Source: Curvibacter lanceolatus ATCC 14669 (lineage in GTDB: Bacteria > Pseudomonadota > Gammaproteobacteria > Burkholderiales > Burkholderiaceae_C). Taken from it: DNA of 64,000 bases. The notes beneath the pieces are model-generated. The model had not been told where the DNA came from and made no database searches. It saw only the letters and a list, made by a program, of their open reading frames with translations. The position numbers were made by a program, and so were the translations under genes. Position 1 is the stretch's first letter; every line of letters begins with the position of its first letter. Of this stretch, positions 56,904 through 64,000 are shown piece by piece. The DNA lies in NCBI RefSeq assembly GCF_000381265.1, contig NZ_KB906257.1, positions 1 through 64,000 of the forward strand, in the 5' to 3' direction.

Positions 56904-57806
56904 TTATTGAATTTCCAACGGTTCCACCGTCACCGCCACGTTCAGGCGGTGATTGGCCCCACCATGGATCACCCCGCGCATGGGCGACACGTCGGCGTAG
57001 TCGCGGCCGATGGCCAGGGTCACATAGTCTTCGCCCGGTGAGCGGTTGTTGGTGGGGTCGAAGTCGAACCATTGGCCCAGAGCACCATCCTCACCGGGTG
57101 AGTACACCGCCACCCAGGCGTGCGAGGCATCGCTGCCCACCAGGCGGGGCTGGCCCGGTGGCGGCGTGGTCAGCAGGTAGCCGCTCACATAGCGGGCCGG
57201 CAGGCCCAGGCCGCGCAGGCAGGCGATCATGATGTGCGCGAAGTCCTGGCACACGCCCTTGCGCTGGGCCAGGGCCTCCACCGCAGGGGTGTTGATCTCG
57301 GTGCTGTTGGAGGCGTAGGTGAAGTCTTCGAAGATGCGCTGCATCAGTGACTGGGCCCCATCGAGCACGCTGACGCCAGCCCCGAAGCTCGGGCGGGCGT
57401 AGGCCAGAAAATCGTCGTGCCGCGGCACATAGGCCGACGGAAACACGAACTCGGCGGCCGGGTCGTAGCGGCCACCGGCGCGGTAGCGGAAGCGTTCGCG
57501 CACCTGTTCCCAGGGCAGGCTGCCTTCCGGGCCCAGGGGCGGCTGCGGTGGCTCGCGGGTCTCGACCACACTGTGGGCGAGCACGCACAGTTCGTCGTGG
57601 GCGGTCTGCAGCGAGAAGAAGGCGCGGGCGTTGCCGAACACGTCCCGGGTTTCGCTGGTTTGCGCGGCCTCGGGCTGGATCTCCAGCCGGTGGCTGACCA
57701 GGGTCTGGGTGGCCGTCTGCAGTGGCTTCAGGTGGGCCATGTGCTGAGCGGTCTCTACCTGGGGCGTGTAGTCGTAGCGGGTCTCGTGGGTGATGCCGAG
57801 TCGCAT
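56904..57806 (-). CDS. Transglutaminase-like (cysteine peptidase fold) protein
   Basis: A 300-aa bacterial transglutaminase-like protein. The N-terminal domain RLGITHETRYDYTPQVETAQ is typical, then the catalytic domain with Cys in QRKGVCQDFAHIMIACLRGL, His in DASHAWVAVYSPGED and Asp in QWFDFDPTNN. It starts 4 nt after the ATP-grasp/alpha-E gene and is the last gene of the cluster. In related clusters this protein and the large transglutaminase-DUF2126 protein are thought to act as peptidases or amide-forming enzymes on a peptide made by the ATP-grasp ligase. Reaction unknown. Confidence 0.9.
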   Translation of the reverse strand: MRLGITHETRYDYTPQVETAQHMAHLKPLQTATQTLVSHRLEIQPEAAQTSETRDVFGNARAFFSLQTAHDELCVLAHSVVETREPPQPPLGPEGSLPWEQVRERFRYRAGGRYDPAAEFVFPSAYVPRHDDFLAYARPSFGAGVSVLDGAQSLMQRIFEDFTYASNSTEINTPAVEALAQRKGVCQDFAHIMIACLRGLGLPARYVSGYLLTTPPPGQPRLVGSDASHAWVAVYSPGEDGALGQWFDFDPTNNRSPGEDYVTLAIGRDYADVSPMRGVIHGGANHRLNVAVTVEPLEIQ

Positions 57807-57810
57807 GGCT

Positions 57811-63500: not shown

Positions 63501-64000
63501 CCCGAGTCGCGGCAGGAGCCTGAGGCATTGCCCAGGGTCTCTTCGGGCGTCTGCACGCCAGGCTCCATGCGGATCAGGTAGCGGATGTCGTTTTGCAGTT
63601 TCTGGTTGAGGCGCACCAGGAAGTCGATGGTGCGGCACTCGCTGCGGTCGATCTCGGCCAGGTACTTCTTCAGCAGCGGGGTGGGGGCCTCGGTGACGAG
63701 GTAGGGCGCCAACTCTTGCTTGACCAGTTCTTCGTACTGGAACGGGAAGTTCTCGGCCGCGGGCTCCAGGAAGAAGTCAAACGGGTTGTACACCGCCATC
63801 TCGACCACCAGGTCGACCGTGACCTTGAATTCGGTGGTGGGGTTGGGGAAGACCAGGCGGGCCTGGTAATTGGCAAACGGGTCTTGCTGCCAGTTGATGA
63901 AGTGGTTTTCGGGTTCGATGCGCAGCGAATAGGAAATGACCTTGCTGCGGCAGTGCGGTGCCGGGCGCAGCCGGACCACCTGGGGGCCCAGGTTGACGGG
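60539..64000 (-). CDS. Transglutaminase-DUF2126 protein (partial, 5' end beyond the window)
   Basis: At least 1,150 residues; the 5' end is missing. The frame stays open to the window edge through [14 protein letters not shown], the family's usual N-terminal block, so only about 20 residues should be missing. The transglutaminase core has Cys in [20 protein letters not shown], His in [12 protein letters not shown] and Asp in [10 protein letters not shown]. The rest is DUF2126, with [38 protein letters not shown], and [20 protein letters not shown], all conserved blocks. It precedes the ATP-grasp/alpha-E fusion and the small transglutaminase. Predicted role: peptide modification; chemistry unknown. 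Confidence 0.93.
   Translation of the reverse strand, partial: [1153 protein letters not shown]

Follow-up and report, generated by a model that had tools for sequence, protein, structure and literature searches.

The closest described relative of the locus considered here is the operon encoding Anbu, Alpha-E, ATP-grasp and transglutaminase proteins (Iyer et al. 2009), described in PMC5666114 and PMC6376114. The sections of these two Anbu papers drawn on here report neither a product nor a target for the predicted making or attachment of a peptide. Among the papers listed in literature searches whose scope was work other than the 2009 founding paper, we found no report of an inactive ATP-grasp copy.

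We analysed a 64,000-nucleotide stretch of DNA from Curvibacter lanceolatus ATCC 14669 (the window). At its right end it carries a transglutaminase gene with a DUF2126 domain (TG-DUF2126), a fusion of a permuted ATP-grasp with Alpha-E (FUS), and a second transglutaminase gene (TG). As originally predicted, this gene set recurs in bacteria and belongs with the Anbu/Alpha-E/ATP-grasp/transglutaminase system, contiguous loci being seen in relatives. With a probability of about one half, we propose that these genes and an unfused ATP-grasp gene with its stand-alone Alpha-E neighbour (AG and AE) constitute one nitrogen-stress ligase/transglutaminase system, in which FUS, a copy of the live AG-AE pair, acts as regulator or scaffold. 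The features are as follows; coordinates prefixed with C5 refer to the contig of the window.

60539..64000, minus strand, gene 1 (TG-DUF2126), transglutaminase domain and DUF2126; runs past the right edge of the window
C5:60545-63226, DUF2126 profile match within TG-DUF2126
57811..60441, minus strand, gene 2 (FUS), 876 aa, a circularly permuted ATP-grasp without its catalytic residues, joined to Alpha-E
58951..60105, minus strand, degenerate ATP-grasp domain of FUS (match to CP_ATPgrasp_2, PF14403, about 472-475 bits)
59821..59847, minus strand, FUS residues 199-207, S-Q-R-T-Q-A-P-S-G, from the alignment to 3n6x and the unfused paralogue
57850..58806, minus strand, Alpha-E domain of FUS (PF04168 match, about 203-206.5 bits)
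57807..57810, minus strand, 4-nt gap between the FUS stop (57811-57813) and the likely TG start, from the coordinates
56904..57806, minus strand, gene 3 (TG), transglutaminase (PF08379 and PF01841 matches)
C5:64273-66921, plus strand, ComEC-type gene separating the two operons; outside the window
C5:67013-68458, plus strand, AG, unfused permuted ATP-grasp with intact residues; outside the window
C5:68472-69431, plus strand, AE, stand-alone Alpha-E; outside the window
C35:2836-3663, on another contig, Anbu (matches 5loy, 5nyw, 5nyj, 5nyf and 5lox)

The three leftward genes of the original prediction are confirmed by Pfam matches, all on the minus strand, gene 1 matching PF08379, PF01841 and PF09899 (DUF2126, 1340 bits). 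The likely ATG of TG-DUF2126 is at C5:64051, which gives a full protein of 1170 aa, and the likely start of TG is the ATG at 57806, the start chosen by the ORF caller (57965) probably being too long. These coordinates agree with the claim that gene 3 starts 4 nt past the stop of gene 2; a fixed stoichiometry, which had been read from this gap, is not implied by it. Judged from the spacing, the window genes are likely co-transcribed. After TG, on the same strand, comes a RidA/YjgF-family gene (56328-56786), and a further minus-strand open frame of 222 aa (55473-56141) matches neither Pfam nor NCBIfam at E 0.001.

Gene 2 had been described as a ligase, with loss of the ATP-grasp catalytic residues on alignment as the finding that would weaken a joint function of the three genes. 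The alignment shows this loss, both here and in all 123 FUS proteins compared, and the description of gene 2 as a ligase is not supported. Aligned to 3n6x and to AG, FUS carries S199 and R201 at the place of the expected ATP-grasp E-x-N motif, the E and N of which bind the metal; at the site where FUS reads S-Q-R-T-Q-A-P-S-G the unfused paralogue reads E-D-N-L-R-V-P-S-G. Four residues, E230, N232, D497 and N528 (here and below, residue numbers of this kind follow the unfused paralogue), are kept in 65/65 AG and 0/109 FUS from 113 loci, AG frames shorter than 400 aa being left out of the counts and two AG located in long frames (L144_11703 and L063_890_3031_m) having been moved from the FUS to the AG class. 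The same was observed in the survey genomes without a DUF2126 match (AG, 7/7; FUS, 0/9) and in plasmid proteins (AG, 2/2; FUS, 0/5). The plasmid FUS set includes Granulicella (Acidobacteriota), and the additional intact AG proteins (7 + 2) include one from Deinococcus. In total, the four residues are absent in 123/123 FUS and present in 74/74 AG. Two sets of FUS proteins were considered as live enzymes and rejected, namely those with high ATP-grasp scores (L137-L140), where E and N are missing too, and those from genomes without a DUF2126 match, where the four residues are lost in 9/9.

FUS is nevertheless predicted to fold still as an ATP-grasp. Its model has a mean pLDDT of 83.3, and the best PDB match is 3n6x (TM 0.85 by target length), followed by glutathione synthetases, with the Cp1B structure 9cjn as match 15; the structure predictions used 37 and 22 sequences. 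Thus, since the shape is kept and the residues critical for ligation are lost, FUS is probably a helper and not the enzyme itself. In a comparison of 50 of the 64 Alpha-E rows with 90 of the 109 FUS rows, the ER motif is present in the Alpha-E part of FUS, whereas several polar residues invariant among stand-alone Alpha-E proteins are missing from it. For stand-alone Alpha-E, the sequence search found no solved relative. In a tree of 60 FUS and 41 AG rows (all those outside L057-L136 plus a random 22 and 16, respectively), one branch separates AG from FUS with SH-aLRT 100 by a quick method, with midpoint rooting only and with some long FUS branches. As the root is not known, it is from the residue losses that we infer the descent of FUS from AG, i.e. 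its origin in an AG-AE pair that was fused and lost residues. Both AG and FUS place the contig L101, labelled Akkermansia muciniphila, among comamonads, and it is probably misbinned.

The right flank, where a search for an Anbu gene had been suggested, contains AG and AE instead. This pair (operon 1, C5:67013-69431) starts about 3 kb beyond the window end and had been missed; AG, AE and FUS are the only Alpha-E and CP_ATPgrasp_2 matches of the profile search in the genome. AG and AE are on the strand opposite to the window genes, which speaks against a single two-operon system. The gene next after AE encodes a GGDEF-EAL protein. In many comamonad loci, too, AG and TG-DUF2126 lie about 2-3.3 kb apart. 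It had been stated correctly that no Anbu gene lies in the window; on contig C35 Anbu overlaps the end of a gene that we take to be mutS-like, and sits away from its usual partners. As expected for an Anbu-type peptide system, the genome holds a stand-alone Alpha-E and an ATP-grasp whose residues are intact; Anbu is unlinked to the operon. Contig C17 carries the proteasome homologue BPH, and on contig C4 there is what is presumably an HslV-like gene beside an HslU-like one. At about C5:78690-83900 we also note a presumed membrane transglutaminase of the TgpA type with neighbours that we take to be DUF58-like and MoxR-like.

Both transglutaminases have the intact Cys-His-Asp triads ascribed to them, C180, H229 and D245 in gene 1 (numbered from its ATG) and C239, H282 and D303 in gene 3 (ORF numbering). 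All three residues are kept in 92/92 TG-DUF2126 relatives; among the relatives of the transglutaminase, His and Asp are present in 124/124 and Cys in 117/124, the other 7/124 having Ser. The proteins with Ser for the catalytic Cys (L049, L115, L117-L120, L124) adjoin AG-AE or are encoded upstream of TG-DUF2126. A point absent from the earlier description is the Pfam label of DUF2126, putative amidoligase, and the DUF2126 part of gene 1 is the other ligase candidate and possibly a second ligase. We considered DUF2126 as a glutamine-synthetase-like ligase, and structure, fold, PDB-profile and profile-comparison tests gave no support beyond the Pfam label: the fold model is poor (pLDDT 59), no glutamine synthetase was among the 50 matches listed in the fold search made with it, the PDB profile search gave none either, and a comparison of profiles with three GCS2 proteins was not significant.

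The distribution was assessed in 249 Pseudomonadota genomes, an even draw from one phylum; a genome was scored as having FUS if a second Alpha-E match lay in a frame of at least 800 aa. By this count FUS is present in 72/249 genomes (63/63 in one subset and 9/17 in another), and in the 38 of these 72 that were fetched and read it was confirmed in 38/38. Alpha-E was found in 132/249 genomes, DUF2126 in 71/249 and Anbu, at E 1e-15, in 84/249. A stand-alone Alpha-E accompanies FUS in 72/72 genomes, the copy in G149 (74% complete) being partial. FUS and DUF2126 occur together in 63 genomes, FUS alone in 9, DUF2126 alone in 8 and neither in 169 (Fisher p 7e-40). The nine FUS genomes without DUF2126, one of them 74% complete, count against the proposed system. 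Among the genomes with DUF2126 alone, 3/8 are under 90% complete, and G036, G064 and G076 (99% complete) look like real exceptions; in G036 and G064 (L148, L150) Anbu adjoins the DUF2126 gene. Anbu is present in 38/72 FUS genomes and in 45/60 genomes with Alpha-E and no FUS, and thus FUS is not tied to Anbu; at the level of loci, Anbu is linked in 6/109 FUS loci (L060, L100, L114, L116, L128 and L140).

The distance from the FUS stop to the end of TG is below 1.7 kb in 104/109 loci. Among the remaining five, one sits at a contig edge, and TG ends less than 2 kb away in two and about 5.6 kb away in two. TG-DUF2126 is situated just upstream of FUS in 91/109 loci, 6 being at edges and 12 differing. 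One-strand arrays in the order AG-AE-TG-DUF2126-FUS-TG are observed, for example, in L044, L122, L126, L129, L130 and L134. Many of the loci come from comamonads, hence they are not independent, which weakens the case for our reading. A plasmid of Enterobacter roggenkampii (L208, NZ_CP116251.1) carries the whole five-gene array near arsC; it belongs to a plasmid set of 117 records with a match, 40 of them listed and 6 of these fetched.

To describe the regulation, we scored sigma54-type -24/-12 boxes, demanding GG and GC and accepting a box from 10 of 12 matches upwards; the promoter and NtrC-site counts cover the upstream regions that were long enough and had a recognised start. Such a box precedes 37/88 TG-DUF2126 and 38/53 AG genes, against 1.1% and 1.8% in shuffled controls with permuted two-base blocks, and is found upstream of 2/111 FUS (a set that still contains the two long-frame AG), 3/103 TG and 0/55 AE, the inner genes. 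In this genome, the box of TG-DUF2126 is at C5:64136-64121 (11 of 12) and that of AG at C5:66974-66989 (10 of 12). Thus putative sigma54 promoters, recognised by their motifs, precede both operons, although 51/88 TG-DUF2126 and 15/53 AG upstream regions have no box at this threshold, which speaks against common control. An exact TGCAC-N7-GTGCA lies upstream of our AG. NtrC-like sites (at least 9 of 10) precede 12/53 AG genes (6 with the control spacing) and 6/88 TG-DUF2126 genes (control, 4), the latter being little above control. No NtrC-like site was found upstream of the TG-DUF2126 gene of this genome, which is a further point against the proposed system.

Expression data exist for related clusters. 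In B. cenocepacia H111, the ntrC mutant lowers the expression of I35_5080-83, a common NtrC/sigma54 target, by 8.2, 9.4, 9.4 and 6.0 fold, respectively; I35_5080 is named DUF404/407, 5081 DUF403, 5082 transglutaminase-like and 5083 large transglutaminase-like (PMC5491218). By these names and by other Burkholderia loci, the four genes would correspond to AG, AE, TG and TG-DUF2126. As the gene after I35_5083, I35_5084, is unnamed in the main text of that paper, NtrC dependence is shown there for I35_5080-83 and may or may not extend to FUS. In P. putida under nitrogen limitation, PP_2686-2688 are up 11-15 fold in the wild type and 17-37 fold in the relA/spoT mutant, with NtrB/NtrC named by the authors as putative regulator; the genes are still up 14-20 fold in the rpoN mutant, which speaks against sigma54 dependence in P. 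putida, and PP_2685 is only 1.12-fold up in the wild type and 1.1-4.8 fold overall (PMC7801951). Counts in marine metagenomes link these domains to urea metabolism (PMC3597751). Taken together, the motifs fit NtrC/sigma54 control as in the related Burkholderia cluster, while the rpoN mutant of P. putida conflicts with it.

In the system that we propose, the window would hold the second of two operons (TG-DUF2126, FUS, TG), AG and AE forming the first, and nitrogen shortage would switch on both. AG, perhaps with the DUF2126 part, would make an amide-linked peptide or adduct, and the transglutaminases would move this product or act on glutamine. FUS, as a subunit without catalysis of its own, would bind nucleotide, peptide or AG-AE and either hand substrate to its partner TG or gate it; Anbu, where present, would trim the product. 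The ATP-grasp protein of the Yersinia Anbu operon freed phosphate from ATP, which favours this scheme, while the co-expressed proteins of that operon, which is described as four genes, gave no specific pull-down, which does not (PMC6376114). We also put forward, more tentatively, a tagging of proteins or peptides induced by nitrogen starvation, where AG-AE and the dead twin FUS would form a mixed complex and the rebuilt FUS pocket would sense nucleotide or hold the peptide and control a dedicated transglutaminase, so that a pseudoenzyme would gate the conjugation.

Several alternatives concern the state of FUS itself. FUS could be a live enzyme with a rebuilt active site, mostly with Arg for the metal-binding Asn, and an altered ligase chemistry. 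The kept ATP-grasp fold of the model agrees with this, and so do the residues that remain, as D213, R499, R517 and D537 are found in 106, 109, 106 and 107 of the 109 FUS, and Arg or His takes the place of the Asn in 105/109. Since FUS retains these four residues and often the lysine K437 (80/109), nucleotide binding or unusual chemistry is possible, which counts against a purely regulatory or scaffold role. Yet E230, N232, D497 and N528 are gone in every FUS protein, the G443 and G444 pair is kept in 1/109, and in the structurally related ligase Cp1B an Ala at any of the equivalent positions (R139, D141, E163 or N165) reduced or destroyed activity (PMC12568646), so that we regard a live FUS as unlikely. 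The same losses in the ATP-grasp domain, and those of several polar invariants in Alpha-E, would be expected if FUS were a decaying gene without function. Against this, dN/dS of the ATP-grasp domain is 0.06-0.20 (5 pairs), close to the 0.04-0.15 for AG (4 pairs) and 0.07-0.16 for TG-DUF2126 (5 pairs), and that of the Alpha-E part is 0.06-0.32. Frames of at least 800 aa persist in the 72 genomes counted, and many columns are invariant across 37 sequences that share 49-68% identity with the window protein. Thus, the dead ATP-grasp domain is under purifying selection and looks like a conserved pseudoenzyme, and gene decay, against which selection and conservation speak strongly, was rejected on dN/dS as scarcely credible.

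Another alternative leaves FUS inactive and changes its partners: the three window genes would be a complete unit, where DUF2126 ligates, the transglutaminases transfer and FUS only bridges, AG-AE being separate. The Pfam label of DUF2126 is in its favour, as are the many loci with TG-DUF2126, FUS and TG together and no AG in the fetched stretch. On the other hand, a stand-alone Alpha-E accompanies FUS in every genome where FUS was counted, several loci have the five genes side by side, and the sigma54-type motifs precede both operons, which makes a self-sufficient unit rather doubtful. Returning to the two-operon system, in which FUS would regulate or act as a scaffold, AG is the gene to assay for ligation, and FUS a possible regulator: a dead ATP-grasp copy paired with TG and, in the counted genomes, found only alongside the stand-alone Alpha-E set. 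Names that databases give to FUS, 'circularly permuted type 2 ATP-grasp protein' among them, are thereby put in question, and the sigma54-type motifs together with the Burkholderia ntrC data point to nitrogen limitation as the condition for finding the product.

Compared with the Anbu-type operon, the locus has the same protein families, and contiguous loci in relatives join both sets; it differs in two fusions, one with DUF2126 and the dead one of ATP-grasp with Alpha-E, and in the position of the intact ATP-grasp and stand-alone Alpha-E outside the window and of Anbu on another contig. The first ~520 residues of FUS resemble in fold 3n6x (Mfla_0391), the glutathione synthetases and Cp1B (9cjn), whereas FUS is without the E-x-N motif and nearly all its members are without the loop glycine pair. 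Finally, by their description, RloABC and RimBK of Pseudomonas are also made up of an ATP-grasp, a peptidase and a partner of transglutaminase type, and include an inactive part (PMC12239564); there it is the transglutaminase, whereas in the window it is the ATP-grasp.
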